From Sphagnum magellanicum (taxonomy: Eukaryota > Streptophyta > Sphagnopsida > Sphagnales > Sphagnaceae), in the NCBI GenBank assembly GCA_021904315.1, contig CM038915.1, forward strand, positions 18,662,001-18,726,000: a DNA stretch of 64,000 nucleotides, given 5' to 3'. Position numbers and translations under genes: made by a program. Below are positions 3,341 through 63,840 of the stretch, piece after piece (the first letter of the stretch is position 1; every line of letters begins with the position of its first letter). Below the pieces are notes generated by a model that ran no database searches, had not been told where the DNA came from, and was given only the letters and a program-made list of their open reading frames with translations.

Positions 3341-4724
3341 TGAATTGCCTTACTTGGCCACTAGACGCTATCCTTGATAACTCTAGGTAGGCATCTAATA
3401 TTTTACCCAAGTGTTAAGAAACAAAACATGAATATCTTGCCCAATTCTCAAGGTTTGGTGATAACCATTCAACATTAGTCAAGACTCAAAACTAAAATTG
3501 AAACATCATAAAGTTTTATCAAAACTAAGCTAGCTTCTTTAGTTTTGAGCCTTGCTCTAGCACCAACATGCATTGTATCGTTGTCACCAATTGCCCTAAC
3601 ATCATGAGTAAGAACAGTTTTTTTTTTTTTTTAAATTTTTTTTAGCAATTCTATTTCGAGATTTGGAGACTAGTTGATATTCTCAACAATCAACTTGTAC
3701 TTAAGCAACAAATGAACCATAATTATTTTCAAGTAATTTCTAAACCTCTCCACAACTTCTTTGTGGGTTTGTTTTGCTCTTCAAAGTCACAAAAGATTTT
3801 TCTTTAGAATCAAATTGTTGTGCATCTTTCTTGATCTAAAATTTCTTCACAATTTTTGTTATGATGGAAAAAAAAAAACAAAAATTGCAACCAAAATTAA
3901 AATGATGCACACTCTATTGCAACCTCTTGTAGGCCTTTTGCCACCCTTGCCTTTGTTGCATCATATGTTCCATTAAAGCCTCTTCCAAGGGTACAATCTT
4001 TTGTTGTTTCTATTTCTTTCCTTTTAATTCTAGCTCCATAATGGAGCAAGTAGTGTTGTTCTTCACAAAGATATATGCGCATTGGTTTTTGTTGTTGTGT
4101 ATTGTATGCAAAGCTCCAAACAATGAAGCAACAAGGTCATTTGATGGGTTTTGCCCTATGGCATAGTGGAGCACAACAACACTCTCACTATTATTTACAA
4201 CCTACAAACTCCCTAGTAACGTGACATTTACGAGGTTAGTTTGCAAGTTTGGGGGTGAATATGCGTTTACCATTTCTAGGTGTGACAACAAGAACGAAAT
4301 CAATAATTTTCAACTTTTATGGCATAATTAATTCAAAGGAAGATTTTCTCAACATTCAAATGGTAGGTGATGTGTTCACATTTGACAACCCTCCCCCACC
4401 ACCCAAGATTACATGAATTCCCCATGCCATCTTCTATTTTGGAAACATGGTAGATAATATTAGTTAAATGAATGAAACAAAATGGTGGACTCTTATGGCC
4501 ATCTCTTTTGCTACTAAGCATGTTAGTCTTTGAGTCCAATCCCCCAAGAATTTGGAATATTTGTGACAACTTAAATTTGTGTTTAATTTTAAATGGACAT
4601 TGAGTACACCCATGGCATAGATTTCAACATGAGAAACAAGTTTGTCATGTTGAGATCTATCGTCTCTAAAAACCAAAACGCTTAATCTTGCCACACTATT
4701 GATATCGATGGAAAGCCCTCAATG

Positions 4725-4985: not shown

Positions 4986-7384
4986 TAAATTAAGGAAAAA
5001 TGCTTTTGGAAGGAAAAATTATAGATGACCATAAACAACAATTTTTTAATAAAAGGAAAATTCCACTCAAATAAGAAAATAAGTACCTACCTACTCATAT
5101 TTGAAATGAATGGGAGGTAGTAGGTGAAACTTCTCTATCTAGCCTGCTTAATATTGAAAGAAATGCTCTTTGCATGGGAAGAGTGAGGAGGGAATGTTAT
5201 GTTGCCTTCTTCCTTCATGCATTGATGGAATGGAACTGCAAGTCAGTGTCACTCACCATTGAGTAATAATCAAAACAAACTTTAGACCTTTAGCATATTA
5301 TCACCATTGGAAAAAAATTCATTATTTAATTTAATTTAATTTAATAAATTAATAAATAAATAAACAAAGCTTCTCAACTGGGAGGAAGTTTACTTTATGT
5401 TTTCTAACTTGTAATCCAAATGGAATCCAAATGGGGGTAGGGGAAATAACTTGCACAATTAATAAGTATTTGGGATGTCCTAGACACTTGTAGTAGAAGA
5501 AGCCCACATTAGTGGGTGTGGGGGGGGGGTTCTTCATATGCTCTGAAAGTGTTTGGGAAGCAATTCAAGCCCATTGTTCCCATTGCTGGATGGCTAACAA
5601 AATAATATAAATAAAATATTTTGGAGTTTTATAAAGAGAATTTTTATTTCTATTATTGTTGGTTTCACAGTTGTTAACACTTTTATTAGCCTTTTGTATA
5701 TTAATTCATCTTGCTCAAAGTTCCAACCCCACCCGCCCCCACATAGAAAAAAATATGCAATTTTCAAGAGCTACAATATTAATAATGCGTGTGTAATATA
5801 TTTTGTGTGAAGAAGCCTTTTTTTTTCTTCTCTCTCTTATTGGTGAAATTTCGCCAAATAGAGAAATTACAAATTCAAAATTCAAAAAGTACTAAATGAT
5901 TTGGAGGTTTTCAATAGCCAGAAATGAAGGGAGGGGAAAATATAAAAATTCAATATGTAGCCAAAACATAAAAAGGATGATTAAAGATTTGTATTTCATA
6001 TTTGGGTTATGACCCAATGAGTTTTTTTTAATTTATCTTCGAAAGGATGATCTCCACTTTTTTCTACATCTTCATATGGATGATACCCATTTTGGCTACA
6101 AACAAAAAAAAAATCCTCAAAAAAATAAAATAAAATAAAAATCCCAAGTGGTGTGAAAGAGGCTTTTGGACAAAAGATTCTCTAATCATTACATCAATTA
6201 AAAAATTTCAAAACACCCATATTGTCATACATCATATTTTGTCCTTTACCTTCTTCATAGGTACCTTAGTAGTAGTAGTAGTAGTGAGGAAGATCTTTCC
6301 CTTGTTGGCCCACAAATTTGTACGTGATAGTGTTATATATTCACATAGAGACAATTGACATTTTGGGAACATGATAAAGAGAGATCCAATTTTATAGTTA
6401 CTTCTTGTGTTTTCTCGTGTTGTTTTTCTCTTTTCAAAGAAGAGAAACATGATTGTTGCAACAAGATAACCCCAAACCCACCCTCCCCCCCCCCCCCCCA
6501 CATACTTGCACCTACTAGATTGTTGGTGTTCTTTCTCTCTCTCATCACCCCCAACAAGAAGGTCATCACCTTTGATATGCAAAAAAAAAATTATACCCAC
6601 ACAATAAATATATCCAAAGAAAAACATGAAAAATTGGTCATATTCTTTAATATGAAAATTCTTATATTAATTTTGTAAAACTGAAAAAATATTGTACTTG
6701 TTTGTATGAGAAAGGAGGTGGTGGTGGTGGTGGTAGTAGTAGTAGTAGTCATACCAACAATTGTAGAATGGGCATCCAATTCTCAATTACAAATGTCAAC
6801 CCATTTGGAGTTGGTTTCAACATAAAATTGAAATTGGTTATCATGTTGACCACTAGCATTGAGCCATGACTAGCCCAAATGGTCAAGATACATGGCCATT
6901 TTGCAAATTGGTTATACAATTTATTCACTACCTCACCATGCTAGATGTCACCAACAATTTAACCACCCAATTATAGTGGGTCATTTGGTCTACCCAATCA
7001 CCAAAGTAAAATGTGCACGCATGCAAGTTAATTTAGAGGATGATTCGACAAACCATATCTCTTTTACTACATGCATAATTGTCCCTAAACAAATATAAAA
7101 TAGTCAATGAATGAAAACACAATCACATTTGTATAAACAATCGTGATATATCATGCTTCTAATGACATCTCATGCTTAAGACTCATGACAAACTTCGAAA
7201 TGCCAATACTTGTGGGGTCATTTATTTACATCAAGGAAGTTTCTTTGTTTTGTATGTTGTGTTTGTTTGTCATGTATGTTTTGTTTGTTTGTTTTGTTTA
7301 TCACGTTGAGATTTCCCAAACCACAATGCACCTCACTATGTTCTTGGTACTGTCGGAAAACTCTAGATGAATGAATTGGGGTGC

Positions 7385-25979: not shown

Positions 25980-28900
25980 TGGCAATTGTGATATTTCAGT
26001 GGATTTAGAGAACAAAATCAATATTTGATTTTTGGAAAGTTTTTGAAAACCTTCCCATTCATGTTATTTATTGACAAGTTGGGCTTTGATTTGGTGACAT
26101 GAAAGTTTATGTTGTGATTGGAATGTGTGAGGTTTTTATCATGAACAACCACATGAGAATCAAGATTGTTAGTATTGCAAGGATTCAAGGTTTTGTAAAA
26201 CATATGATCTATGTTATAATTAACGTATTAGTTCTCATCTACAAGCAAATTCTTTTCTTTAAATGTGAATATTAAGTAGTTCTAAAACATCAACGTCAAT
26301 TTCAACCAAAAAAAAAGTGTCAATCCAAAAATTTCTTGGAAGTTCAGCAACTTTTGTTATGTGACTTGGAATGGAGTGACTTTTCAACATAGATTTCCCC
26401 ATTCGTACATGATGGTTTCATTCATATCCACAAGTTCAATTCATATCAAACTTTTACGTTTACTAGCTAACATCACATTTCATTTTATAATTACGAACAG
26501 TGTATATAAAAAGTAGCATTGATATATGTGAACTATTACAAAAGGTATGACAATGAAAGGTTCCACATAAGAAATAGTTTAAATCTCAAAGACATTAACT
26601 ACCACTTGTTGTTCATGATGAAAACCTCACATACTTCATTCATAACATGAACTTCACCTAGACATTGTTATCCCAAACCAAGACCTATGTATCATTTAAT
26701 ACTTTTGAATAGAAGACATTAACCACCACTTGTGGTTGTTGATGGTGAAAACCTCGCAAACTCCAATCATAATATGAACTTCACTTGGATATTGTTATCC
26801 CAAATCAAGACTTATGTTTCATTCAATACTTTTGAATGTAAGGTCTTCCAAAAATTGCCTACAATCAAATTTGAAAGGTTATTAAAAAGATGAAATGATT
26901 ATTCATGGCTTCCATAATTAGGATGGCAATTAAGTTCCTAACATTAGAGTTGTCTTTTTTTTCATTATTTCATTATTTGTAAATTATGTTATCAATTAAA
27001 CTTCTTCATTCAAAGTTTAAAATCTTCCCCTTATTTATTTCCCTCATCTCTTTAACCAAGCACAGGTCAATTAAAAAAATGTTTATTAAAAAAATCATAT
27101 GATGGATACACCTCAAGTTATCACACAAATTGAAAGTCTAAGAAGAAAACATAAACAAAAATAACTTGACAATTATTCAACGAGGAAACAAATAAACCAT
27201 AAAAACATTGTAAAAACATGATTTTTGCAAATGAAGTAGTTTCAAAAGCCAACCCATACATTTTAAGAACTTATGAAACAATAGATTTGAAGGTTCCAAA
27301 GGTGAAAACATTGAAGGTGAATTTTTTTTGTGAAACAAATCTCAAGTGGATTTGAACACAACTCTTGGAAAAGAACCTTTGTCGTTTGAAAAAGAATTAA
27401 TTGAACTCTCCATTTTAGTGAGAAAGATAATTTTAACCTTTAAATCTTCAAACGCATAATACCATTTATGGATTACACCAATTTTGTATTGTTTAAAGCA
27501 ATCAAACCCACATACTTATAGCATACAAATTTTATAATACTTGCATATTAGGGATTAGAAAAATTTGCAAGAAATATCATTATAAGTTGAAGCCACCAAT
27601 GCCCATACATGAATGATTTAGAATGCTAGGACTATTGAATTTGTTTAAATAAATAAAGAAAATAAATGTATGATGTTAAAACTTATTAAACAAATTATTT
27701 ACAAGCTTTTTTTACCAAAAACAACAATTTAACATAATTAGACAAGCATTAAACATAATTTGGTGTTTGAAAAAATTGGGCTTTTATGTCAAAAGTGAAA
27801 ATTAGATAAAATGCAATGGGATATATACCAATCCATTACCTAAAATCTAATAATGTAATGTGAATGAAAAATTATTTACTAAGACTTATAATCAAGAAGA
27901 TGTTTCAACTATTCAATCATATGGAAAGACTCCTTTGAAAATATATTGTAATCACATTTTAACTAGACATATATGTATTATGAAAGTAAAAAGAAATTTA
28001 TGAACTAATGAAAAGTTCATAAAAAGAAAGAAATTGATGCAAAATATTATATTTTGTAAAACCTTTTAAATTGGTTTTTGAATCCATTTGGATATTTCTT
28101 TATAACAAGGAGAATTCAAAGGATTGAGAAAAAAGATAGATAGTTTAACACTAAATCTTAAAGGGATTAAAAACTTAATGTCTCAAATGTTGTAGCTCAA
28201 GGATTGTCAAATGTTATCAAATAATATTATAATGTAAGTTGCAACAAAAACCTTGTGAATTTGGGGCACATGCCTTGATTTTGTTGAAAATCTAAAACAT
28301 TACAACAACATTCCATGTGCAATGGTTGATTTGTATTTCATATGTCAAAAACTTTCAATATGGTTTTATTTTGAAATGATTAACTTGAGTATGCATATGA
28401 TGTACTTATTTATTATGCAAAAATACCAAATTAAAATAACTATGGACTTATAAAATGGATCAAATGAATTGTGGAGCCAAATAAAAAAATATTTTATATA
28501 GACTTCAAAATAGTCTGTTATTCCTTTTTTTTTCTTTTTTTTTCCGCAGTGTTAAAAATTTGAGTATTGTCATAAGTCTATATCATTATGGAAAATTCAA
28601 AAGTTATTCATTTTATGTTAGGTTTGTGCACACATTTATAAAATAATTTTAATATAGTTAGGTGCTAGTAGTAGATAAAATAATTACTTAGATTGAATGG
28701 ATTGAATATTGTTCATCTCTTTGGTCATTCCAAGGTTCAAAAAAATACAAAAGAAATGGACTAAATAGGTATGAATGTTTTTTTGCCACATAGTGAGCCA
28801 CCTCAGCTTGCATTCACCTAGTTTGATCAACATTGTCAATCTCATTTATTATGTCATTACCTTTTCTTTTTTTTTGTCATTCAGATTGCAGAAAATGCAT

Positions 28901-32640: not shown

Positions 32641-32756
32641 AATTATTAGGTTTATTAATTAGGTAGGTAGGTAGGTAAAAAGGGTAAAATAGATAGGGTA
32701 ATCATTTAATTTATTAATATTTTCATATTAATTTTCAATAAAATGATTTAAATTAT

Positions 32757-33010
32757 ATATATATTTGGTCATTGCTCAAATTATATTATTGTCATGGTGG
32801 TTCAATAAAAACCCAATCAAAAAAACCAACCAACCAAAAAGACTTAGTCGAAATAATTGAGTCCAAATTGATTTGTCCAAAATATATATATTTGGTCGTT
32901 GCTCAAATTATATTATTATCATGGTGGTTCAATAAAAACCCAATCAAAAAAACCAACCAACCAAAAAGACTTAGTCGAAATAATTGAGTCCGAATTGATT
33001 TGTCCAAAAT
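32757..33010 (+). repeat. Recent 127-bp tandem duplication
   Basis: The segment from atatttggtc to ttgtccaaaat occurs twice in tandem (copies start near 32,757 and 32,884) with only about three differences. It is one of the youngest changes in the window and produces a self-repeating open frame at 32,772-32,987 that is not a gene. Confidence 0.9.
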
Positions 33011-37798: not shown

Positions 37799-38728
37799 CA
37801 ATGTTGTGCATGTAAATTCTACAATGATTTACATTTACATGCCAATTTTTTTACACTTACATTTCATGTTGTATATATTTTGGGATTTACATTTACACTT
37901 GCATAATATGAATGTATATATATTTAAAAATACCCTTACACACATGTAAATTCCTTTGGCATGTAAGTGTAAATCACAATGCAATACTCTTATGAGGGTA
38001 TTGCACTACCATTGTCCTTGGAGATTTGATTCGCAAAAAATGAGAATATTGCATTTCATACTTTTCATCAACTTTTGTGGGTTTTTTAAACAAAAATATA
38101 AGACCATCACGAAAGCAAGATGATAAGAGGGAGCTTACTTGAAACAAGTCATTGATGAAGCTTGCAACAATCACTAAGAATTACAAGATGACCATGATGC
38201 CATCACTTAAACCAAACCCACAAAACTTGCAAATGAAAAGGAATAACATGAAACATGTCATTGTTGGAGCTTTCAACAATGCAAAGAATTATAAGATATT
38301 AATAACAACACCAATTACACTTGTAAACAACCTCTAAACAAATGGGAATAATTTTGGGAGAGCTCATAAAATCACAATGAAAAAAGATTTGCAAGATATT
38401 ATTTCTCCATATCTAACCTTTTCTTTTCTCCTACCTATCTCCCTGTTCTTTCCTCATGCCTACCATTTGCCCCTTTGTCCCTTTCTTTTTCTTTTTTCTT
38501 GGTTGAACCAATTCCATTACCACAGTTGTTATTTTTTTTAAATAATAATAATAAATATAATATTGCATATGTTATTGTGTGTAAAATTGTATACACATAT
38601 GTGTTTTTAAAAAATGTACACAACACTTATCTTGTTTTACACAAGGTGAAATAGCCTTACATAACTTTACATGTACACTTACACTTACTTGATGTGTATA
38701 TCAAAAATCATATACATGCACAACATTG
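37799..38728. mobile_element. hAT-like non-autonomous element with TTACA-type subterminal repeats
   Basis: Termini CAATGTTGTGCATGTA and TACATGCACAACATTG are perfect 16-bp inverted repeats. Both subterminal regions repeat a motif like TTTACATTTACA / ACTTACACTTAC. Flanking octamers gtcaaggt and gtcagaac agree in only four positions, so the target duplication is not proven. No transposase. Confidence 0.65.
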
Positions 38729-42804: not shown

Positions 42805-43900
42805 AACACAAAAAGTATAATTGGGCATTGGCCCATACATGCAAATATCGCTCCATTCAAAACCTGAAAATATAACACTTGTAATACCGTAGTTGAATAT
42901 CATGTTTGTGTAGCTCTCTGCTCAATAATTACTTAACTTTGAGGATTTTCATTTTGACAAAAAATATATATATATTTCAAATATTCCAAAAGATGCTAAA
43001 TCATTTTCCTTCACAAATTCATTTCTTTTTGAAAATGATTTTTTGAAAATTTGAACAAGTTTTAGAAAAATATATTATTATTCTTTGGGTGAACTTGATA
43101 TTCCCTCTTGGGTATGGAAATTTTTGTATGTTTATAGTTTTGAACATACCAAATTTCTCTACTCATAGACTAGGCTGTAATTCCTTTCTTTCAAATCACA
43201 AGTCAGGAAATCATTTCGAGCACAAATCATTTGTGATATAACCCTTCTGATTGCATGCATGCATGTTTCCCAAAAGTCGATTAGTGTTGTTAATATTAAT
43301 GTTGGTAAAAGGAAATGATTGGCCTTATGGGTCGACGATAAGGCTTGGTTTTTAAGGAGAACTGCATTTTTGGGTCAAAACCCAATGTTGTTCTATTTCT
43401 CAATTTCAAAAGGAACTTTCAATCATGGTTTTAATTTCATTTTATTTTTATTTTTAATTTGTGGAATGGTCCTTAGATTCTGTCTTTAGATTGGTTTTGT
43501 GATCTTTAAAATCTTTTATAATTCATGTCATTTTCACAAAGAATTTAGAGTCAGTCTTGTTCAAGATTAGGTCCAGTTTCATCTTCATTACAAATAGTTA
43601 AACAAAAACAATTTGGTATAATATTAGTTTAGGCTAGAGTGAACCAGCCCCCATGATTGCACCAATTGGCCCTTCTGTCCATAGGATGGGTTGGATGATT
43701 CGTCTCTTTTTCATTCACCTCTTTAACTTACGTTAACCAACATTCTACCACAGTCAATCTTTTTTGGTTGCTCACCTTTGACCATTTTTTTTTTCATTGC
43801 CAAATTTTTCCCAACCCTGACCTCCATACTACCCACCCACCTAGCTACTATACTGACCTAAATCTTAGCCCTACCTACTAACTAATAATTAATCCTTTAC
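42805..43900. other. Anonymous AT-rich DNA
   Basis: No gene or element recognised. A palindromic gcatgcatgcatg run occurs near 43,254-43,266. Confidence 0.4.
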
Positions 43901-43904
43901 TTAC

Positions 43905-45060
43905 CTTGGCAAAACTCTTATCTCCTCTTGGCTAAACCAATATTTCTTCTTGGCTAAACTTATAATTTTTCTTGACTAAATTTCTATCTCTTGGCAAAAC
44001 CTATACATTTTATTGGCTAAATTTCTATGTCTTGGTTAAACCTATATATTTTACTGGCTAACTTTTATTTCTTTGCTAAACTTATATTTTTTCTTGACTA
44101 AACTTCTATTTCTTGGTTAAACTTATATATCTTACTACAATAAACTTTCTCTAAACTAATATTGTGTAAACTAATATTCTCTCTAAACTAATATGCGGGC
44201 ACAAGCCCATGGCGGGCCTCATACTTAATCTAATAATTCTCCATAAATTGATATTCAATATTTTTTTCCGGTCCCATAGCATTTTATAAAGTAATACATC
44301 ATACATATGGCACCAAAAAAGCGAAGGTGGGTATTCTGAGAGTACCCAGAGTGCAGCTTTCCACAACCTCACTTTCTGCCAAGATTTCTACCACTCATGT
44401 CATATGATCTTCTACGTGCTTTGATCCTCCACCAAGCTCCACAAGGTTTTGTTACCTTCCCCAATGATCCATGACCTTCTACTAACCTCTATAACCTTCC
44501 ATGTTACTCTGGCAGGTTCCGAAATGATTTTTATTACCCCCCATATAATTTGTGTAAACTAATATCCTCCATAAACTAATATCTTCCAGCCGATCCCAAG
44601 GATATTAGTTTAGAAAGAATTTACTATAGCTAACTTCTATTTTTTGCCTAAACTTATATTTCTTATTGGCTAAACTTATATCTCTTGGTTAAACTTATAT
44701 TTCTTGGCTATATTATTTTTTCTTGGCTAAACTTATATATTTTATTGACTAAACTCCTCTCTTTTGGCAAAACTTATATCTTTTGGCTAAATCTATATTC
44801 TTTTTGGTTAAACTTATATTTCTTCACTAAACTTATATCCCTTGGCAAAACCTATATATCTTCTTAGTCAAAATTATTTCTCTTAGTTAAACCTATATTT
44901 TTTCTTGGTTAAATTTGTATGTTTTGGCTAAACCTATATTTCTTCTTAGCTAAACTTCTATTTCTTGGCAAACTCTATATATCTATTGGTTAAACTTCTA
45001 CCTAATTCCTACTCCAAAAATTAACCAAAAAGTAGATACATCTTTTAGTAATGCCATTTT
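43905..45060 (+). repeat. Long degenerate ~22-bp tandem array
   Basis: Dozens of units of the type TTGGCTAAACTTATATTTCT run across the region with frequent one- to three-base length changes. The array is interrupted by the MITE at 44,134-44,630 and resumes after it in the same register and orientation, so it predates that insertion. Confidence 0.85.
44134..44630. mobile_element. MITE inserted in the 22-bp array
   Basis: Imperfect inverted ends: actacaataaactttctcta on the left, and tagaaagaatttactatagc as the right-hand counterpart. Subterminal taaactaatat motifs recur near both ends. Interior is less AT-rich and unrelated to the array. A clean target duplication is not readable, so the superfamily is open. 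Confidence 0.6.
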
Positions 45061-46089
45061 AATTATTTGCAAAACATCTACTTGTTGGCAAAACCTACCT
45101 ATCTAGATGTCATTATACCTACCAATGCACTTGCAAATTATGGACTTCAATTGAAAAAATTATAACGTAAAATGTGGGTATTGCAATTGCGAATTTGTTT
45201 TTGATGGTAGTTTTTTACATCCACTTTGGACCATTTAATGCAAGATGTACTTAGTTTAATTAAGGAAAAGGCTTGATAAATATAAAGTTAAAAAAACATC
45301 AAACATTTATGAATATTTGCACAATTTTTAATATTAATCAAAATCAATCCTAGGTTGGATTTTGGGGCGGAAAATTGGCCAAATTTTCACATACAAATAC
45401 TTGTAACAAGATGCATTTTATTTCTTTTGAAGGTGAACGGAGAAAGTCTCAAGTTGAAATGACCACACTAAAGGTAAAAAAATAAACTCTTATTTCATTC
45501 ATTTAATTTTTTCTTTTCATTCTGTTTCAATTTTAATTCATCACTTTCTTTTAAAAGATTATTTTGTATGGCATTTGTATATGTTTATATAGTTATTAAT
45601 TTTTATGACATTTACCATTAAAAAGTTTTAGGTTTATATATAATTTTTTGGGTAATTAGTTTTTAACTCTAAGGTTAATGCTTCAATTCATTAAAAAATT
45701 TAATTGATTAACTTTAAAATTCAAAACATAGTTATTATAAATGTTTTTTTGTATTCCATTTGTAGTTTTGTTTGTATAATCATCAGGTTGAAAACATTTA
45801 TCATTAGGATTATTTAGGATTTTAAGTTTAAGGCTTAATGAAATGTGTGTTGATTTATTTAGGTTGTGTTTTCAAATCAAGATACAACTCCTTTGAATGT
45901 GATATCATCCTTTAACATCAACAGTATGATATTTTTTCTTAATCATTTTCTTATTTTTTAAAAATTGTTTTGTTTATAATTTAAGGAAATCAATTTCCCT
46001 AAATGGTTTTAATATGGTCATCAAATTCCACTAAAAATGTTCCATGTTTAATATATGGATTTAACATTTTGGCCTACCATAAATAGTGT

Positions 46090-46550
46090 GGATTTAGGGT
46101 CATGATTCCAATATTACATTTTGTCACCCATATATAGTGTGCATCTTTAAATTATTATGTAAGTATTACATTTCCCTTTCCCATATATAATGTGGATTAT
46201 GGTCATAATTTGGGTATTGCACTTTGCCCCCACATATAGTGTGCATCTTTAAATTATCATGTAGGTATTGCATTTTTCCCCCATATACAGTGTGCATCTT
46301 TAAATTATCATGTAAGTATTGCATTTAAGGCTCCCACATATAGCATGGATTAAGGTCATAATGTGGGTATTGCATTTTTCCCCCATATATAATGTGCATC
46401 TGTAAAAAATCATGTAGGTATTGCATTTAAGGTTTCCACATATAGTGTGGATTAGGGTCATAATGTGGGTATTGCATTTTTCCCCCATATACGATGTGTG
46501 TCTTTAAATTGTCATGTAGGTATTGCATTTATTTTTTCCATAAATAATGT
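46090..46550 (+). repeat. 51/102-bp higher-order array upstream of the transposase
   Basis: Two alternating ~51-bp unit types are visible. One carries gtgcatctttaaattatcat followed by gtaggtattgcattt. The other carries gtggattaaggtcataatg followed by tgggtattgcattt. Pairs repeat at about 102 bp. The same units occur inverted inside the transposase intron at 48,590-48,940. Confidence 0.85.
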
Positions 46551-46833
46551 AGTTAGTTAACTATCATGTGGGTATTACATTTAGATTATCCATAGATAAT
46601 AAGGATTCAAAATTTACAATTATGGCCATAAACCGTATCATATGTTTTCCATATTTAACATTTAGGGTATTATGTGTATGATTATATAGGGTTTAGATGA
46701 GGGATACAAATTAAGTACTTAAAACATGTTGCATTAGTATTGATTATGACAATTAACATGTAATTCAAGATATTACAAATATAAAGTTTTGGACATCAAT
46801 ATCAATTTATTGTTTTTTCTTGTACAATCAGCT

Positions 46834-49800
46834 TAAAACATAGTTTCAAATATGAGTCGTGTTTCAAAATTTCAATATATTGAGATTCAAAACCCAAAGA
46901 AGTCACCCTTTAACAACATGGACTTGGTGTGGAAAAAAAATGTTTGACATGGAGGGGCACATATAATCGAGGTTAAGTGTGTATACATCCCACATGCATG
47001 AATCTTGAAATTTCTAATTGGTTAACAAAGCCATGAAGGCTCCTTGATGGAATGGAACATTTATAAGTGGGTACCTTCACAAGAAAATGTAAAAATGCTA
47101 AGAATCCAAAACCACCTCGACCATATTTGGTGTGATGTTCTTTTATTCACTTTTGTTATATGGAACTTGTTTTTTAACCTCATATTGTACCAAATTTTAG
47201 GTCTTAAATTGATTTCACATTTTGTAGGTATGCATGTGGATATGGGTCGAAAGATAATTGAGGAAACCCAAATCACCATTGATCCATTAAACGGGGTTGT
47301 TTAGCTCAATTTTTGATTAGGCGATTGTAGACATGACTTGAGGTGGCAAAGATAATCTTCTACCATCAACCTCATATGCGAATTAATGGTGAGCTTGCAC
47401 ATGGCAAACATGACCTTGATTCCATTGCGTGACCATCTTTTTTTGCCCCATAAATGTCACAAGCCTTCAAGGATCACATTTGGAACCAATTGGGTTTAGG
47501 TTACACCATCGAACAAATATATGATAAGCATAAAGCAATATGGTGGGCTAAAATCAATGCAAAAGAAGCGATGACAAGGGATGATTTCATTAGACAACAA
47601 GACATTGCTTACTTGGATCGCAAACACACAAAAAAAAATTAACGTTTACATTAAAATTTGGTCATTTCCCTTCGCACATGGGCATTTAGTCATCCAAATG
47701 ATGTGTTTTATTTTCAAGATGCAAGTGAGGATAATGGGATTCATGTCCCATTCACAATAGGGATACAAACCCCATCTCAATTGCAAGCCATGGTTTTGTT
47801 AGGTGATAATGGGGCAATCTCAATGGATGCCACCTTTGGCACTAATGATGTGAAATTTCATTTGTTCACATTGATGGTGTTTGATGCACATCACATTGGA
47901 GTGCTGGTTGCATGGATCATTACAAGCTGCCAAACATGCGATGATTTGGTGGAATGGTTAACTCCTTTGAAAACAAGGCTTTTAAGGAAGAACCTTAAAT
48001 GAAAATCTTCATGTTTCATTGTTGATAATGTTCCACAAGAATTACGAACATTGTAGTGAGTTTTATTTTCATTCTACCTTTTTTTGAGCTTTTATGTACA
48101 TATAGCCATTTCAAAATTTCATCCCACATTTTCCATTTTAAATAATGTTATTAGTTGAAATGATAATAAATTGGTATTTTACGCATGGTTAGGATTGTGT
48201 GGGGCTACAATCAAGTGCTCATTTACCTTTGGGCATGGCATGTTTTAAATGTTTGGTGCTTACATTCGATGGAAAAAATCAAAGACGATGAAGTGCGATG
48301 TGCAATATTGGATGACCTTCACACCATCATGTACATGCCCATTGAACCAAATGAAAGCATTGAAGCCTTCATGACTCATGGGAGAAACAACATCATTGAA
48401 AGTTTCACCCAACATTTACTTAATGATTCATGGATTCGATATTTTTGGACTAATTATTTCCAAGTTGGTACGTGAATTAACTCTCAATCCATTATTGTTG
48501 TTGCACCATGTTGTGCATAACCTAAAATATTCACTCTTTAAATTAAGGTAAAAGCACTAATGGTGGACTTAGCAATCTCATGTGGGTGCTAAATGCAATA
48601 CCCACATTAAACCTTTAATCCACACTATATGTGGGAGCATTAAATGCAATACCTACATGACAATTTAAAAATGCACACTATATGTGGGGGCAAAGTGCAA
48701 TACCTACATGACAATTTAAAAATGCACACTATATGTGGGGGCAAAGTGCAATATCCACATTATGACCTTAATCCACATAATATGTGGGAGCCTTAAATGT
48801 AATATCTACATAACAATTGAAAGATGCACACTGTATATGGGGGAAAAATGCAATACCCACATTATGATCCTAATCCATATTATATATGGTAGAAAGAAAT
48901 GCAATTCCTACATGATAATTTATGGATGCACACTGTATTTTGTTGTAGATTTATGGATGGTGGGGTTTCAATGAGTGCCACATTCAAACTGGGACACACA
49001 AGCATCAATTGAGTCTTACCATGGGGCATTGAAACGTTGGTTCTCTTTGGAAACAAAAGGACTTCAGGGTCGACGAATTGATTGATTAGTGTGGAGATTC
49101 ATGACAACAGTTGCAAAACATTGCATGCACACAACTGAAATGAAGAAACGCAGGTTCATAAGAAATAAGGTTGTGGAACGCATTGTGAAAACAAGTGTTG
49201 AGAAGGCCACATTAATCTCTCACACCAATGTCACCCATGGGATAGATGATTCAAACGAAATTGGCCATGCATGGATGGTACGAAGCCAACAACATCCGAA
49301 TATGACATATAAGGTCCCACTTCCTTTCACTAAGTATGCTTGTTGCACGTGTGAATGGGCCTTACGTGGAAACCTGTGTATACATCAAGTTGCCATTTTT
49401 CTTACATGTACCGATCTCATTAAAGAAAATATCATTCAATATTGTGGGACATGGTATGGATCTAATCGTGGAGGTTTTGCTGCAATGTTTACGGACCCTA
49501 CCTATTTACACATTTATGACAATGAAGAGGCCGATGAAAATCACTCTGAAAAACCATGGGTTGTTGATATGTGTGAGCTTATGAAACTGGATGATACCTC
49601 CCCCAATGTGGAAAAAGAGAAAGATCACAACCAACCTTTAAGTTCATCCACTTCCACGGAAAAAACATTTGTTTAAATGGGTGACATAATGCAAAAAATC
49701 ATCAATGAAGTCAAAGAAGCTGGGGTTCAATTCATAGACCACACCACATCATTGTTACATGTTATTGCAATAGATGTACGAGGTATTTGCCTTTCCAAGG

Positions 49801-49937
49801 TGAATGAAGTCATGCATCTCGACATGGTATTTCATTGTGTCAATGATGGACTTAGTAATTCAGTGCATCGGATGAAGGATTGGCATGAGATGATGTTAGA
49901 ACATGGAAATATTTGTAAGAAGAGGGCTCATGAGTAA
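46834..49937 (+). pseudogene. MULE transposase (DDE plus SWIM finger), inactive
   Basis: N-terminal part: WNIYKWVPSQENV and HLDHIW (about 47,050-47,130). Catalytic domain at 47,658-48,050: SMDATFGTND with the first Asp at 47,826, FHLFTLMVFD, VAWIITS, then FIVDN with the likely second Asp. The third acidic residue is in ASIESYHGALKRW (about 49,005-49,045). A SWIM finger, CTC-x8-CIH, lies at 49,344-49,385. An intron at 48,468-48,948 (GTACGTG...TGTAG) joins FQV to DLWMVGF in frame. Stops interrupt it (for example TGA at 48,001-48,003 and 48,973-48,975, TAA at 49,674-49,676), and the donor near 48,050 looks lost, so it is dead. The protein would have bound element ends and moved them. Confidence 0.85.
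48590..48940 (-). repeat. Inverted GGTATTGCA array inside the transposase intron
   Basis: On the plus strand the units read aaatgcaatacctacatg and cacactatatgtggggg, the reverse complement of the 46,090-46,550 array. The array fills most of the 481-bp intron and stops just before the acceptor. Confidence 0.85.
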
Positions 49938-52261
49938 AAAAAACACAAATTTGTTTATACCTATCTCCCATTTTAATTTTCCATTACTAAAATGTGCATC
50001 ATATTACAATTGTGTCAAAGAATAGATTATTTATGTGTTAATGTGTTGATTTTTGTATCAATGAACATATAGGGTTTGAAAGTTAAAGTTACATTATTAA
50101 GGCTATATAACACATATTTTCTAAAACTCCCAAACAAAAATATTTCTTTCAAACATTATATAGAGGTGGGTATTGCAAGTCAATTGTATAATAATCACTA
50201 GGTCAATATGCGGGTAATGCTTACCCATCTTGTTTCTTGTGGCATTTAATTGATATTGCAAGGTTTAGGGTATATCATAGTTAAAGGTTAACAAGCACTA
50301 ACACAAGTGTTGCATATATTTTCATATCTTTCATGGGTATTGATTATGTTAGATGAAGGTATTGCAAATTCCCTACTCCTTCTAGAGGGGGATTTGACCA
50401 CTTAATGTGGGTATTGTCCTACCTTTTTCATTAGAATGATGATTTGCTTTAGTTATAAATATAATTTGGATATTTCTTATTCCATTCGGTCCATTAAATG
50501 TAAGTATTACATTTGGTGAACAAAATCCCCTTAAGTAAACCTAAATTATGAGAGACTAAGTTTTTGCAATACATGCATAATAAATTTGGTGAGGGTACAC
50601 AATATAAATTTATGTAGGTATAATGATAAGCTTACTATGGTAAATTGGTAATATTACATTATAGTAATAAAGGCAAAATTATGTTAATGATCACCTTAAC
50701 ATTCACTACAAACAATGTAGGTATTGCATTTAGTAAACAAGATGATCTTACATAACCTTAGATGATGAGGGAATAGGTTTTGCATTATGAAATCAAGGGG
50801 GGTTACATAACATAGATTTACCTAGGTATTGCAGTTTGGGATTTAACATAGGGTGATAAGGTATAGTATTACAAATTGAAAACTTTAGCCCTCATCATGT
50901 AGACATTACAACCTAATGCATGCATAGGTTTGAATTTGAAAAATTAAGGAAACCTATATAATGAACCTTAAAATGTTGAGTTAAAACCTTTGTATGTAAC
51001 CAAAAATCCTTACATTGACCTTAAATTAAATAAACACAAAAAAAATTGGTTGCATAACTTTAATGGTGGAATTTAACGATTTTTTTAGAACTAAGTGTTA
51101 GACCTAATTTTGGAATTATTTTTGCATAACCCTAAATTGTGTATAGACTATCAACTTATGTTTTAGACCTAATTTGGGGGGGGACCCCAACTAGTGGGAA
51201 GGTTTTTTTATCATTCATACCTTTGTCATGGAATCACCTTCATTTTCCTCTCTTTTAATGAAAAAATAAAATAAAAATAAGAACCTCGTTAGATATATGT
51301 GTGTATGTGAATACATAAATTCACTTTAAAAATATTCCATGAAAATAATAAAAATGTTAGGAAAAAGGTTACTTTAAAATAATCAATGATAAAAAGTTGG
51401 GCTTAATTTCCCTAAACCTAATGTTCCCCCTATTTATTTGAAACATATATTAGGCAAAATTTTAAATTAGGGTAATGGAACATGAACATGAGTTGGTTGA
51501 TATGTGGGTATTGCAATTTGAAATGCTTTATGGAAAACCCAACCATAAACAAAAGAAGATCAAAAGTTTGCAATACCTGCATAGACAAACCAATTTATGC
51601 ACCAAGGGATCCTTTCATGAAAATGGGCATTGTGATTATATAAAAATATTAAATTAAATTTTTTGTTAAGGTTATTGTGCGAGTATTTCATGATAAGGAT
51701 AATGAAGGTATTGCTTAAATGCTTTAGCATGGCCACAAAATTGATTAACCCTATTAGATGAAGGTATTGTTCAATTGGTTTATAGTAAATGTAATCCATT
51801 CATAATGGATGAGGGTATTGTGTGCAACATGGCATAAGATTAACCCAAAATCTACAAATCCCAAAATTAGAAGTCAAAATTAAAAGAAGTGGATTGATAC
51901 AAAAATGTTCAAATAACCACATTATAAAAAGGATGGTGACAAAAATATATCATGCTAAGTTAATCTATAATGGTTTGATACAAAATGGTGCATATGTGCA
52001 TTAAAGCTAAATCTATAATTATTCATCCAAAGAGGATGAACTAGAAGGAATGCCCATACTGGTGCAATACTTTGTTGTAGCTTCTACAACTTTTGTTGCA
52101 TGATGATGAGTAAATAGTTAGTGATGCTCAAGTGTAAGTCAAATTTCATTTGCAACAAAAGCCTCCTTTATGTGCCCTAAAGTTTAACACAAGAATACAA
52201 AAAAACAAATTACATTCCAATGTTAAGATGCAAATAATGTTTTAAAAAAATATATAAATAT
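49938..52261. other. MULE intergenic region with scattered GGTATTGCA motifs
   Basis: Between the 3' ends of the two convergent genes. No further gene is recognised. Plus-strand copies such as gggtattgcaa, aaggtattgc and gaaggtattg are scattered over about 50,160-51,830 at irregular spacing, unlike the ordered arrays. Confidence 0.6.
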
Positions 52262-53512
52262 GGAAATATACAACCCATGAATGATTTCAGAATCATGATA
52301 CTTGGATATTGCATCCATTTCTTTGATTCGGTTGTGTTTATTGGACTCCAATGTCCAATTCTAAGCGCCCCATGCAACTTTCAAAGGCTTTGCATAAGCT
52401 ACTCTGCTTGCTTGAATTGTTTTAACAAGATTCTCGTCCTTTTCAAGGCACGCCCATGCACTTTGTGGGCTGAATCTTACCCCCATGCTAGAATCCCAAT
52501 GATGCCCAATAAGATCTCGGAGGTTAAAAGTACCAACAAAGGCCATTTAACCTGTTCCATTTATTACACTTGGGTTTGGAGTTCATCCCATTTTAATTCT
52601 GCTTTCTTTTTCATTGTATCGAGAGCCTTCTTTTCATTCTACTTTTGCCTTGCATGTGGGTTGTTCAAAATTTGAACGTTTATAACATGGTGATTTTGTT
52701 GCCTTGGTCCCCCAACATGAGTAGAAGTATGGACATATTTGCCTACCTCATGCAGAGCCCGTGTTTGTTGTCCATCTAAATGTTGATGAAGTAACCATTT
52801 ACCTGCATAAGCATCAATGCATCCATTGATTTTGCACTTCCACCTTGACCCTTCGTGCACCCACCATTGCATGATTTGGTGGTACTTTTACTTGATCACT
52901 TTCATGTGAAGCCACCAAAGCCCCTACAACAACATTCAAAATCAAACCAATAAATAATCCTTAAGAATGATGAAAGTATTGCAAACAAGCTAACAATAAA
53001 AACCTTACAAAATATGAAGGTATTGTAAATAGACCAATAAAAAAACCCTACACAATATGAAGGTATTGCAAATAAACTAGCAAGAGAACTTTAAAAATAT
53101 GAAGGTATTACAAACTAGCAAATAAAGACTAAATACAAGGAGGGCATTGCAAATAGGCTAGCAATTAAAACCTTCAAACAATGAGGATATTGCTTGGAAA
53201 AAATTGGGCAAAAAAATACCCCATCTCCATTTTCAAATAGAGAATGAAAATGGGGTTTAGGGTTTGGATTGGGATTTTTTATTTGTAATGTCTTGCACTC
53301 TTTTAAACCCTATCATGTGAAATGTATCATCCATCACAACAAATTTATTTTTTAAAAAAAGAATGGGATTAAAGTTTACCTTCAAAAGTAGGAATATAGA
53401 TGATAATTCTTTGTTCCACTTCAGTTTCCTCTTCATTTGTTACAACATTCACTTGCCGATTATTGGTAATCACCTTTCCTTGGCATTTAAGTTTATTCCG
53501 AGGATGTGCCAT
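52262..53512 (-). pseudogene. Second MULE gene: C2H2-like finger plus coiled-coil protein, inactive
   Basis: Exon 1 (53,512-53,380) starts MAHPRNKLKCQGKVITNN and ends IIIYIPTFE at a GTAAAC donor. The acceptor TTGTTGTAG at about 52,924 opens exon 2 with ALVASHESDQVKVPPNHAMV, and the splice phase fits exactly. Next comes a C2H2-like finger (CKINGC-x12-H), whose last His position reads Gln. Then come GPRQQNHH and a basic, probably coiled-coil stretch (NEKKALDTMKKKAELKWDEL, about 52,635-52,575). The 3' part (FSPQSAW, LVKTIQASRVAYAKPLKVAW) continues in another frame. Frame breaks and stops show it is dead. Nucleic-acid binding is plausible; I cannot name a family with certainty. Confidence 0.6.
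52960..53185 (+). repeat. ~50-bp array in the intron of the second MULE gene
   Basis: Four to five units carry atgaaggtattgcaaat, then a variable actagcaa-type spacer and aaccttacaa. It fills much of the 456-bp intron (52,924-53,379), the same situation as in the transposase intron. Confidence 0.8.
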
Positions 53513-53660
53513 CCTACAACAAAAGCACTCAAATCCTTAAAAAATTATCAATCCAAAAAAGAAAAACAAAAGTTTGAATCTACCCAACAATAGCAATTAC
53601 CACCACTACCCAAGAACTTCAAACTCCCTTAAATAAACAATTGCAAACAACATATAAAAA

Positions 53661-54077
53661 GGGATAGTAACTTATTTTTTCCAACTTGTTGCAACTTTTT
53701 TATACAAAAACAACAACTTGAAATAATAAGAATTGTAAATTTAAATGTTCCCAATATCAATAATAATAAATATTGTTCATTATATTTAAAGGTTTAAAAG
53801 CCCTATACTTTAAAAGTTTTATTTTTTATCAAAATTAATTAATATAGTCTAATTATAAAATTTAATTATTGTAACTATATTTTCATTAATTGATATAAAA
53901 ATCATAAAGTTATATTATTAAATTTATTTTATTATAATTATTTGGCTATATTGATTAATTATTTGCATGAATTCATTATAAATTTATTTTTATAATTGAA
54001 ATTTTATTAATAATTACATTAAATATTGGGCATGACATGTGGTGCCTTTGTGTACAACAACTAAAAAAAAGAGCAAA
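53661..54077. other. Extremely AT-rich DNA
   Basis: Mostly A and T from about 53,700 to 54,030, with no gene. It may include the unrecognised right end of the MULE. Confidence 0.4.
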
Positions 54078-54140
54078 AGACGGTGATGAACCCAGATCTC
54101 AGTTCATCATCGTCTTTTGCACTTGAGGAAAAAGATCAAG
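54078..54140. repeat. Detached unit of the palindromic array
   Basis: The phrase ggtgatgaacccagatctc, then agttcatcatcgtc, folds as a hairpin and is followed by ttttgcacttgaggaaaaag, matching the units at 54,956-55,310. Confidence 0.65.
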
Positions 54141-54955
54141 AGACAACAATGAGCCAATATGAACCACCACCCTTTTTCAAAATAAAATAAAGGAGTTTCT
54201 CCTATTTGAAAAAATCAAATTCAGAGTAGAACACTACCTAAAGACTCTCTTTGCCCTTTTGGTCCTACATCACCTGGTGAAGTTTATGCTTTTACTGAAA
54301 GCCACCAAAAGATGTGCCACAGATAACACCTATCCTCCTAGGATTCTCAAGAATTTCCATAACAAGTCATATGAAAATAAACAAAAATTTTCAAAGATCA
54401 CCATAACATAACGGGCAAATATATTTTGCAAGTCAGAGTAGAAAAATGAGATAGGAACAGTCCAAGTAGAACATTGTGACCTTGTGTAAGCAATGTAGGA
54501 ACTCAAGGCAATGTGGCCTCACCACAAAGTAGTAATTACAATGAGAACACATGAGGCAACATGGCCTCATCACATGCTAGTATTTTTGAATAAAGCTCAA
54601 GGCCTCCTCAAAAACAAAAGTGAATTGTTTAATGTATTGCATGCACCCATTTACAAAGCCATTAGTTGAAGTATTTTCAAAATCTCTAAAAATTTGAAAA
54701 TTTGTTAATTGTATTGTGCCCATTTACAAATTGAATAAAATGAATTTCCAACACACACAAGAAACTCCAACCAGCATCATTGGTGTGGTTCTTTTGGCCA
54801 TGAGCATGTTCAAATGTTATATACTTCATTGCCCTTTTCTTCCTTACCTTTGCATTTGTCAGGGGGTGGTGACATCCCCACATACAGGAAGGTATAGTAA
54901 TGATGCATCTGTTGGTGATGTAACTAGTGAGCTCACACTTGAGAAAAAACCCAGG
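54141..54955. other. Anonymous DNA between palindromic units
   Basis: No gene is supported. Facing open frames at 54,686-54,964 lack motifs. A phrase about an aca-tgaggcaa-atggcctca hairpin-like repeat (about 54,500-54,570) is duplicated. Confidence 0.4.
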
Positions 54956-55310
54956 AGATGACAATGAGTTGGGAGCCTCCTAGCTCATCGTCATCTTTTG
55001 CATTTGAAGAAAAAAACCAAGAGACAATGATGAGCCTCTAGGCTCATCATCATTTTTTACATTTAAGAAAAAAACTAAAAAATGACGACAAGCCTTTCAG
55101 CTCACCATCATTTGTTACACTTCAGAAAAAAAACAAAGAATTGACAACAAGCCAAGGAGGCTCGCCATCATTTGCTACACATGGAAAAAAAAAACAAATG
55201 ACGACAAGTCAAGGAGGCTCGCTATCATTTGCTACATCTAGAAAAAAAAACAAATAGATGAGGACGAGCCTTGTGGTTCGTCGTCATCTTCTACACCTGA
55301 GAAAAAAAAT
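54956..55310. repeat. Tandem array of palindromic ~58-64 bp units
   Basis: Six units begin near 54,956, 55,022, 55,083, 55,141, 55,199 and 55,257. Each has an inverted pair such as GATGAGCC tcta GGCTCATC (55,029-55,048), followed by a catcatttgctacac-like phrase and an A-rich linker. The stems differ in sequence but keep pairing, for example gacgagcc / ggttcgtc in the last unit. Confidence 0.8.
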
Positions 55311-55379
55311 TTAAAAATGAACAAGACTGAAAAAGAAGCAAAGAAAAAAAAAAGGTTGATGCACTAGTTATCTTTTGGA

Positions 55380-55560
55380 GGAATGTTTTCTGCAACATCA
55401 CTTCAGCAATGTCTTTTGCAACACCATTTCAACACCGCTTTTACAGTATCGTCTTCTGCAACATTACTTCAACATTGCCTTTACAACATTGTTTTTTATA
55501 GCATCACTTCAACATCACTTATATAACATTGTCTTTTGTAGCATCATTTCTATTCTTGAG
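55380..55560 (+). repeat. ~40-bp minisatellite
   Basis: About four units of the type tcttctgcaacattacttca plus acattgcctttacaacattg occur in a row. Confidence 0.75.
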
Positions 55561-55720
55561 TGGCGACAAGGTTTAAGGGTTTTTGGTGGGGTAGAGGTAG
55601 GTAGTTGGGGTTTAAAATGCTTGGGTAATCGAATAGATTTTTTTAATGGGTAGCCTTGAAGTAAGTGAGGGAAAAAAAAAAAAAATTGACCCAACCTCAA
55701 TGCCTACAGCAGATCCAAAA

Positions 55721-55746
55721 TTGGGACGAACTTGAGTTCATCCCAA
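55721..55746. repeat. 26-bp near-perfect palindrome
   Basis: TTGGGACGAACT and AGTTCATCCCAA face each other across two bases, with one mismatch. It is close to the hairpin core of the 54-55 kb array (gatgaac...gttcatc). Confidence 0.75.
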
Positions 55747-55749
55747 ATG

Positions 55750-58700
55750 AAACTGGTGTAATCATGGGGCTAGGTCAATCCGGCCACTAATACACAGTTG
55801 TTCAAAATAGAGGTTGTGTAATATTAGTTATGTGCAATCAATAAATGCAATAACTTGCCTAAAATGTAAGCCCAATCTTATATATATATTTCATAAAGTT
55901 ATATTTATTTATGTAGAAAACTTGAATTTATATAAAATGGGGTAGCACCCCTAGTTTAGGTTATAATTCAATTATGAAAAGAGATCAATTACTTGTTTAG
56001 GTTTCAAGGATAATTCCTAAAAACAAATTCAAAAGAAAATTTTCACCCAAAAAAACATTAAAGTCATGTTAGTTTTTTTTTGTTGCTTAGTTTAATCGCA
56101 AATCAATGTGCAATGATCGAAATATTTAGCAATCAAAATAGGTTTGATTATCGACAAATTGTGGTGATCGAACATCATTTTGGTCATCATAAGGTTTAAG
56201 GCAACTCAAGGGTTGAAGTTTTAATTGCCCTCCAACTTACCTTGGGTAGTTCAATATGGGCTATGACCTAGGTTCACCCTAGGTTGACCCAGGTTTATTT
56301 TATTTTGACATGATGCTAGGCAACATTAGCATTCAAATAAACATTTTTCATCTTAACAAATGTTTGGACGTTGTGACAATCTTGGTTTTTGTTGTAACTA
56401 CTATTGTGTTGTTGTTATGCACAAAGAGGAAAACAACAATGTTGTTCCATTGAGCCTCACTATTGTGTTGTTACAAGAAGATGAAGTGGCATGGGTGTTG
56501 ATGTAATGTGTTTCTACTATAATATGCTTCAAATGTCAAAGTAAAGACCTTCTAACCTAATAAGTATTTCATTTTTTTTCTTTTTTTTATCCCCTCATTA
56601 TCTTCCATTCCAAAAGTTCACCACAATCAAACCAACTTCAAAATCTTGTTTTCTCTTTCACAACCTCTCAAACTCTAGGGTACTAGGACCCAATCAAGGT
56701 TCAAACTCCCCAAGATATTATGAACAAGAAAATCAATAATTATGAAATTTTCAAGAAAATTGGGGACAATTGCTTTTAAGCTTTTTAAGCTTAACAAAAA
56801 CACACAAAGAAAGTAATGCAAGAAAACAAAAAGATCAAGAAAATTGAACAAATTTTCTCCAATCTTTTTCTCCTCCAAACAAAATAAATAAATGTAAAGA
56901 GAAACAAGAAAATTAAGAAACACAAAGAAATCAAAATAAAATCCTTTGTGAACTTTTCAAGCTCAACAAACCAAATAAGAAAATGCCGCATGCATATTTC
57001 GCCATGATGCAACAAACTACACAAATTTACATTTATAATTCTCATGCAATTGACATAACAAAAACTAAAACAAAATTTCATAATGCAAGGGAATTGCACA
57101 AAAACAAAATAAACCATAAGACTTGCCATAAATATTAAACCTATGCAAGCTTCATGTTGTAGCTCTAGTTTCCTTGCTTCATGAAAATCAAGAACACAAG
57201 ACAAAACTAATTTGTAATTAGAATTCACATTAATTGAAAAAAAAAACAAACTAAATTTTCAATTTCATAATTCACACAACTTTCACAAATCAAAAAATTA
57301 AACCAAAACCATGGTATTTGTTACAAATCACAGTTTATGCAAAACATAGACTAATTTTTTGATATATGGCATATTTTTTAAGTCCAAGACTTTACTCACT
57401 CCAAACAAGAAAATCTAAGCCTCACATGTATCAACAAAAACACAAAACGTGAGAACACATACATGAAGATAGGTAACAACAAAATATTCAACTTCATGAA
57501 GATGAATATCCTTACCTTTCCAACCTCCAAGAAGGTAATACCCAAAACAAATTTCTTTTTAACCTATTCACATTGGGGTTCACCATTTGCTTTAACAATT
57601 TTTATTTATTGAAACTATTTTTCATTTTCATTTTTTTATCCCCTTTGCGTTTAATTTCTTTTTTTAGAATTCCATTCATCATTGTTGGAACATACACCAT
57701 CATTTCTTGACACATTTCACTATCCTTTTCCTTTAATTTTTTTCTTCATTCTTTTTTTGATTGCTGGGATGCATGAATTCCCACTTACCCATGTGCTAAA
57801 TCTTTAAATCTTTATTTCATTTGACTTCGTCCTTCTAAAGTTTTGTTTAATACATCCAAACATTAAGTTTTATCACAAAACCAATAACTTTCAAACTTGG
57901 TTGAACTTATAATCTCCCAATTGATTTTACAATGACATTCACATGAACATGTTCAATATCAAAACCCCAAAGGTCATAAACCCAAAAACATTGAACTCTA
58001 AAACAAATTCAATGTCATTAAAGTTTAAGAAGGTTGTACCTTCAAAAAAACTCATGAACTTTAAGCATGTTCACTCTTTTCCATTCACAATAGTTGAAAC
58101 ATAAATGTCCAAATGGATGTTAAATGTTGTGACAGATGTCAAACATTGTGATAACCTTAATCTTGTCACCCCCAACATTCAATAATTGGGAGTTTTAAAA
58201 ACAATTATCACCAATTCATGTTCTCAAATTTCTATTCCTTTTTGGGATGATGATTCAATAAATCATGTTACATTGTAGCATTACAATATTACTAAAAAAG
58301 AGGGAAAAAAATGTAAATGTTTAATATGGGTTATGCTCCTTGAAAATCACACATTTTTAATTTGATTTTTTGATTTTGGAAAGGTGGAATTGTTTTTGTT
58401 GAAAAATATATATGATGAAATATTTGTGTAAAATATTTGAAATATACTTTTTCTACATAAATCGTTAAAATATGATGCCTTCAAAAATTGTTTTAAGAAC
58501 TTTCAAAATGTGAACAATACTATATTCACATTGCTGGAAATTTTTTATAAGGTGTCTTAAAATTAGGGATGCCAACAATGACATGACATGGGATTTTTAC
58601 ATTGAGGTGCATTTCACACTAACATATACCATTAACAATCATAACAATTATTTAATTTTGTGTATTTTGAATTGTCAAAAAAGAAAAAAACTAGAAATGG

Positions 58701-63630: not shown

Positions 63631-63840
63631 ATGATCTTTAGAAGCTGGAAGATGCTTCTTCCATACATTTGACACAAGGATACCATAATTAGCACCAATT
63701 TCAGGCATCTTTGGACTGGGATCACATTGACTCTTTCCATGCCTGGGAAGCTCAACTGGCCAGAATGAACCAGCACCCACCAGAGTGCACCATGCAAGAT
63801 GGATGCCGTGTGGATGCGAAACAATTTTTTCAATGCATTC
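63631..63840 (-). pseudogene. Candidate exon of an unrecognised protein
   Basis: Seventy open codons on the minus strand follow an acceptor-like GGGGGATAG. The reading includes IEKIVSHPHGIHLAWCTL, FWPVELPRHGKSQ and EIGANYGILVSNVWKKH, which looks more protein-like than other frames nearby. I recognise no domain. The same frame continues past its first stop with AIPLDDSKSKNALAYMPL, suggesting an old gene fragment rather than a working exon. Confidence 0.3.

Follow-up and report, generated by a model that had tools for sequence, protein, structure and literature searches.

Introduction

In maize MuDR, a Mutator-like element (MULE) transposase and a second gene lie convergently between the terminal inverted repeats (TIRs). 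A MuDR-like structure with two open reading frames (ORFs) has been described elsewhere as well (PMC9168764). Type II Abermu elements of barley and other plants combine a transposase ORF with an opposite-strand ORFR placed before the 3' TIR, and they generate 9-bp duplications (PMC9168764); ORFR evolves faster than the transposase and is reported without an assigned function (PMC9168764). In the Arabidopsis MULE VANDAL21, the accessory protein VANC21 lowers methylation and binds YAGTATTAY sites that lie in introns, between genes and in terminal DNA (PMC5735166), and related VANCs use other motifs that lie in tandem repeats (PMC10398659, PMC5735166). Outside plants, the arthropod element Spectre has a C2H2 ORF beside its MULE transposase, with 74-bp TIRs and an 8-bp duplication, and mutB of the yeast element Mutyl has a DNA-binding role; the paper's text makes its orientation same-sense, the paper's table antisense (both PMC6446971). 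Here we describe a two-gene MULE in a 64,000-nucleotide stretch of Sphagnum magellanicum (assembly GCA_021904315.1, contig CM038915.1, positions 18,662,001 to 18,726,000), hereafter the window. Its transposase faces a spliced gene with a C2H2-like finger, hereafter the partner, and its non-coding DNA carries many copies of a short repeated motif.

Results

A convergent gene pair that recurs across the genome

Positions 43632-55785 of the window are a decayed copy of a two-gene Mutator-like element, belonging to a lineage (A) that is older than a second lineage (B) represented by near-identical copies elsewhere in the genome. The original prediction placed a plus-strand MULE transposase tail to tail with a spliced minus-strand gene, and this is what the reading frames give (46852-49934 on the plus strand against 53512 to ~52271 on the minus strand). 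The likeness drawn to the convergent mudrA/mudrB plan of MuDR also stands, since the second gene is convergent between TIRs in this lineage.

To determine how often the two genes travel together, we screened the 439-Mb source genome once with the finger exon and once with the DDE exon. Protein searches covered the best 150 of 598-1141 candidates (150/598 and 150/653 for the first two), and a Pfam genome search the best 150 of 294, which gave 147 matches, 144 of them carried into the pairing counts; the resulting 226 MULE matches include other MULE families from the Pfam search. In the first search, 53 of 150 MULE matches had a listed partner within 10 kb, in 52 cases downstream and in opposite orientation. 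In the union of searches, 81 of the 226 matches were followed downstream, at no more than 12 kb, by a listed partner in convergent orientation, while 2 had one upstream and convergent, 1 had one downstream on the same strand, and 142 were without a listed partner. The arrangement foreseen by the original prediction was thus found in 81 of 84 pairs, with the two exons mostly ~5-6 kb apart. Two hundred shuffles of partner positions, in which an assumed length was used for contig C15, gave a mean of 0.68 and a maximum of 4 such pairs compared to the 81 observed. Pairing is far beyond chance. Among young transposases (at least 90% identity to the lineage-B copy B2), 40 of 50 had a listed partner. 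The search with the young lineage left 87 of 150 transposase matches without one, and when a 3-kb stretch was inspected for 12 of these 87 drawn at random, a decayed convergent partner was present in 6 and none in the other 6.

Young copies and partner-only derivatives

Two young lineage-B copies, B1 (contig C12, 11.7 kb) and B2 (contig C2), share 98% identity over 11.3 kb. TIR arms of 37 bp were found in B1, where they start GGCCAGAGTG / GGCTGGAGTG with GTGAATTCA at both sides, and in two copies that retain the partner alone, C1 and C2. Target duplications of 9 bp were perfect in all three copies for which both flanks were available (B1, C1 and C2), those of C1 and C2 being GCATCTGTA and CCAAACTAG. 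The window itself holds the empty paralogous site of C2 (contig C19): a repeat at 811-1168 resembles both C2 flanks and runs unbroken across the insertion point (~1068-1076), with a single CCAAACTAG. With the DDE domain, TIRs and target duplications (within the 8-11 bp range) of these young copies, the lineage belongs to the MULEs.

A TIR 32-mer searched genome-wide with up to 3 mismatches gave 271+268 matches, compared to 0 for the reversed control. Of the 97 exact TIRs listed on contigs C1-C15, 27 face both genes on their inward side, 58 a listed partner alone, none a listed transposase alone, and 12 neither, although some of the partner-only cases may have an unlisted, decayed transposase; on the outward side, 2 have a transposase and 95 nothing. 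Sixty-nine of 91 partner copies with at least 90% identity were without a listed transposase within 12 kb, while 20 had one in the expected place and 2 had another arrangement. The original prediction would have been undermined by a C2H2-like gene that occurs mostly alone. In form this is the case, but not in the sense of a host gene: C1 and C2, the two of the 69 that were read, are the B element minus 4.5-4.7 kb containing the transposase gene, with the same TIRs and 9-bp duplications and with partner exon 2 open. We therefore rejected the partner as a host gene, both on these two elements and because 61 of the 77 young copies located on contigs C1-C15 have an exact TIR 1.1-3.2 kb away on their 5' side, never in the wrong orientation; these shared terminal repeats had likewise been anticipated.

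Retention of the partner in elements that have lost the transposase suggests selection for the partner. It is not proof, because the repeat arrays that flank the transposase in B1 (1216-1761 and 6205-6750) contain the C1 and C2 deletion junctions, which fall in minisatellite arrays, and such direct repeats could bias deletions towards the transposase.

Constraint on the partner

The window transposase is 67% identical to lineage B, and lineage-A partners are 34-54% identical to their lineage-B counterparts. Comparison of 15 lineage-A partner copies to B gave proportions of nonsynonymous differences (pN) of 0.38-0.44 and of synonymous differences (pS) of 0.75-0.82, near saturation. Since pN has stayed at this level while synonymous sites approach saturation, the partner protein has evolved under constraint for a long time. 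A selection test on the recent burst was uninformative: 27 copies gave nonsynonymous-to-synonymous ratios (N/S) of 0.80 for shared and 0.60 for singleton changes, with 1.35/0.84 for 11 full copies and 0.40/0.66 for 16 partner-only copies.

These data bear on the possibility that the element captured the partner from its host and carries it, Pack-MULE-like, as a passenger without benefit, partner-only copies being common simply because direct repeats favor loss of the transposase. The flanking arrays that hold the deletion junctions and the near-neutral N/S within the burst are what this explanation would expect. Retention of the partner from A to B at saturated pS and a pN of ~0.4, together with the lack of any case with a listed transposase alone among the 97 exact TIRs, makes it improbable.

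The partner protein

In young copies, as read from the sequence, exon 1 of the partner encodes an acidic repeat and exon 2 comprises 223 codons with the pattern W-x-C-x4-C-x3-Y-x5-L-x2-H-x4-H, followed by a basic helix (ligands C-x4-C-x12-H-x4-H). The finger ligand pattern is present in B and at 22 of the 30 lineage-A loci; a stop lies inside it at 7 of these 22. The predicted partner intron starts with GT in all 27 copies compared and ends with AG in 26 of them, and exon 2 has no insertions or deletions in the 27 compared copies and no stops in 26, although this sample is biased because the copies were drawn from the top matches. In the window, exon 2 aligns to its relatives over most of its length, but the second half of the finger has been lost to a local frame slip.

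Exon 1 had a weak Vps4_C match only, under the Pfam cut-off. A phmmer search of Protein Data Bank (PDB) sequences returned GLI (E 1.6) and TFIIIA (E 2.9), both at the finger, and an unrelated protein (E 0.59), none of them significant. The structural model places a strand-strand-helix (E27-30, E33-36, H43-59) at the finger with modest confidence, and a further helix at 94-126.

A motif concentrated in the non-coding DNA of both lineages

The most enriched 9-mer among those that are frequent in the window element as well as in B1 is GGTATTGCA. The window element (12.2 kb) contains 18 copies and the remaining 51.8 kb a single one (19 in total compared to 0.59 in shuffles); B1, B2, C1 and C2 contain 23, 23, 19 and 18, respectively, while none was found in ~5.8 kb of flanks of these young copies. 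Sites are located in the upstream array, in a transposase intron, between the two genes and in the intron of the partner. By coordinates, none of the 18 window sites or 23 B1 sites is in a coding exon, and the TIRs are without the motif; one-mismatch sites at 49761, 49826 and 52305 fall within coding remnants. Outside the exons, TIR and 51-nt array, A and B share only two short alignments (25 and 52 bp).

Many sites are in tandem arrays, and 10 of the 18 window sites and 10 of the 23 B1 sites form one flank-cluster each, as would be expected if the motif were a minisatellite by-product, copied by drifting arrays and without a binding function. After merging of similar flanks, however, 9 contexts remain in A and 11 in B (20 distinct), the sites recur singly as well as in arrays with differing periods, and conservation covers a 14-bp core, including flanking columns -5 to -1 (ATGNR), with little or none beyond. 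We consider a by-product very unlikely, and the motif quite probably is a protein-binding site.

The extended 14-bp form, ATGNRGGTATTGCA, occurs 2565+2576 = 5,141 times genome-wide, compared to 1+1 for the reversed control. Of the first 100 listed sites, 54 have a listed MULE or partner no more than 12 kb away. The other 46 lie further away, and the one of these places that was read, L076, adjoins B-related DNA (77% over 451 columns to the B intergenic region). Such distant sites would fit a motif that serves the transposase, or a host factor, as a binding site (an enhancer, for example), with the putative link between partner and motif then absent and the partner serving an unrelated function. 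At least one exact site is present at 25 of 30 lineage-A partner loci compared to 0 of 8 loci of other MULE families (L001-L008), and C1 and C2 keep their 19 and 18 sites without a transposase; we regard this explanation as unlikely.

Several further arrangements of the motif were observed. A +/- motif pair ~216 bp apart recurs at four places within 170 kb (G000:C1:1561940, 1610852, 1667002 and 1729681), L076 among them. At G000:C1:7720775-7723158, 11 exact extended sites cluster with B-like spacing, more than 12 kb from any listed transposase or partner, and are perhaps an element that lost both genes. In the window, an exact ATGAGGGTATTGCA outside the element (37992-38005, +) stands beside an inverted GCAATAC and resembles elements of neither lineage. 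Many lineage-B sites (B1 439, 519, 1577 and 1736; L043 and L044) form a near-perfect inverted repeat, AAATGCA-GGTAT-TGCATTT, which would suit a dimeric binder.

Extent and state of the window copy

The limits first proposed for the element, 45170-53660, are too narrow because TIR-like ends sit outside that interval (Table 1). The first 62 bp of the left end have 82% identity to B1, whereas the score of the right TIR is no better than a few chance matches within the window, and no recognizable target duplication was found at the element (ATTAGTTTA versus ACTAATACA, 5/9 positions alike). The inverted 51-nt arrays were considered as TIRs in their own right and rejected, because one arm is in a transposase intron and the TIR-like ends lie further out.

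The window transposase is broken by stops and frame breaks, which accounts for its weak Pfam scores: 23.8 bits for MULE PF10551 at 47655-48002 (cut-off 27.6) and 14.9 bits for a SWIM-like stretch with a C-x-C...C-x-H pattern at 49086-49676 (cut-off 19.6). In B2, where the same exon is open, PF10551 scores 33.3 bits, above the cut-off, while the SWIM match of the young B transposase, at 9.9 bits, is under it. Joined exon peptides show a D-65-D-122-E spacing, with the catalytic residues assigned by reading. Identity to lineage B is 66.5% over 47454-48053 and 64% over 48948-49508.

Elsewhere in the window, a TIR-like GGCCAGAATGAACCAGCACCCACCAGAGTGCACCA at ~63757-63792 (+), near the right edge, scores above the element's own degenerate ends, with no partner-like or transposase-like match near it within the window. 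Two unrelated 127-bp tandem duplications of two copies each are present at 26589-26837 and 32755-33010, the latter recent since its two copies are 97% alike. Rfam gave no match in the window at the gathering score.

Table 1. Features of the two-gene element in the window (window coordinates)
Feature	Position	Strand	Basis or remark
Complete two-gene MULE (12.15 kb), a degenerate copy of lineage A	43632..55785	+ (transposase strand)	TIR homology at both ends, gene pair inside
Left terminal inverted repeat	43632..43668	+	Aligns to TIR of young copy B1
Subterminal tandem repeats, period ~41	43905..44997	.	Repeat analysis
51-nt tandem array 5' of transposase, 6 exact GGTATTGCA	46112..46531	+	
Transposase N-terminal exon remnant	46852..47130	+	Located peptides; homologous to B1 exon 3255-3533
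Transposase exon with MULE (DDE) domain, stop-broken	47228..48053	+	PF10551; left boundary approximate
Transposase exon remnant, approximate boundaries	48186..48472	+	
51-nt tandem array within transposase intron, repeating the upstream array in inverted orientation; minus strand has 4 exact GGTATTGCA	48580..48945	-	
Transposase C-terminal exon, SWIM-like motif CCTCEWALRGNLCIHQ at 49341-49388	48948..49934	+	
Intergenic stretch, dispersed motif copies, 6 exact GGTATTGCA	50164..51715	.	
Partner exon 2, encoding the C2H2-like finger (disrupted in this copy), a basic helix and the C-terminal domain	~52271..52923	-	tblastn with A and B relatives
Partner intron, four ATGAAGGTATTGCA-like sites at 52970-53112, one exact	52924..53379	-	
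Partner exon 1 (MAHPRNKLKCQ...TFEG)	~53380..53512	-	Peptide reading; possible counterpart of lineage B exon 1
Right terminal inverted repeat, weaker	55751..55785	-	Score 25 in TIR alignment

Discussion

Because the layout resembles that of VANDAL elements with VANC, the partner is most likely a motif-directed DNA-binding, anti-silencing protein, that is, one that acts on its own element's motif and keeps the element unsilenced (probability roughly 0.45). In this scheme, the transposase would cut and paste the element between its 37-bp TIRs, leaving 9-bp target duplications, an activity that we infer from the near-identical copies. The partner, with its acidic repeat, single C2H2-type finger, basic helix and helical C-terminal part, would bind the 14-bp ATGNRGGTATTGCA, and binding across upstream, intergenic and intronic DNA would keep the element accessible and unsilenced, as VANC does for VANDAL. 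The components of this proposal differ in strength: that the partner is the motif binder is about an even bet, and an anti-silencing outcome, rather than another helper role, is somewhat more doubtful.

Several observations weigh against the proposal. Binding and demethylation by the partner are both hypothetical; Pfam returned neither a family nor a finger match for exon 2 at E<=5; the predicted structure is weak (pLDDT, a per-residue confidence score, 61.5), and this weak model had no Foldseek match among PDB structures at E<=0.001. Judged by the C2H2 code, the finger helix residues (A/V, K, W, L) appear unusual for base reading. In addition, partner N/S in the recent burst is 0.6-0.8, nearer neutral, 10 of the 50 young transposases are without a listed partner, and 46 of the 100 listed motif sites are more than 12 kb from a listed MULE or partner.

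The partner could instead be a mudrB-like integration helper, with the motif as a landing site for assembly of the transposition complex. It occupies the same convergent position as mudrB, which is reported to be necessary for MuDR insertion (PMC9168764; PMC6446971), and the pair is retained in lineages A and B. The motif, however, is spread across introns and intergenic DNA and not at the TIRs, and a helper role would not obviously favor partner-only elements, which leaves this alternative with a limited share of the probability. Returning to an anti-silencing partner, a broader and more tentative extension is that a plant MULE lineage independently evolved self-recognition through a C2H2/basic-helix protein, unrelated to VANC, that targets an amplified 14-bp motif to escape silencing, with transposase-less derivatives now the commonest young form in the genome.

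If the partner binds the motif, this would be a second, unrelated MULE invention of motif-targeted anti-silencing. One could then test whether mudrB, ORFR and vanC, each the convergent second gene of a plant MULE, share one job, and the system could offer a further sequence-guided handle on DNA methylation. Regardless of mechanism, the element represents a further two-gene lineage, in which some copies are recent and near-identical, derivatives with the partner alone occur, and a very strong motif is common to divergent lineages.

The convergent two-gene plan was already known from MuDR and Abermu, while the partner and motif look new; the top-ranked literature results, with subscription papers mostly outside coverage, did not include a MULE from a moss or another plant whose convergent partner is of C2H2 type. 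Compared to MuDR, the partner shows a C2H2 pattern but matches no Pfam family, a probable difference from mudrB at the level of domain search, and the TIRs are 37 bp compared to 30-320 bp for the MUDR group (PMC6446971). Abermu shares the convergent second ORF and 9-bp duplication, but its TIRs, compared by description, are 138-145 bp (PMC9168764); the terms 'C2H2' and 'tandem repeat' are absent from the text of that paper. VANDAL21 and VANDAL6 likewise combine an accessory gene with a short non-coding motif, often in tandem (PMC5735166, PMC10398659), and concentration of a short motif in the element's non-coding DNA is found here too. YAGTATTAY and GGTATTGCA are somewhat alike, probably by chance. 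VANC carries DUF1985/DUF287 (PMC5735166), in contrast to the Pfam-unmatched partner exon 2. Spectre and Mutyl, with mutB, are MULEs of other hosts that have a C2H2 finger, comparable to the C2H2-like pattern here, a likeness drawn from their descriptions. Collectively, this lineage joins a convergent second gene and a C2H2-like ORF in a plant, with a Pfam-unmatched partner and a motif amplified within the element.

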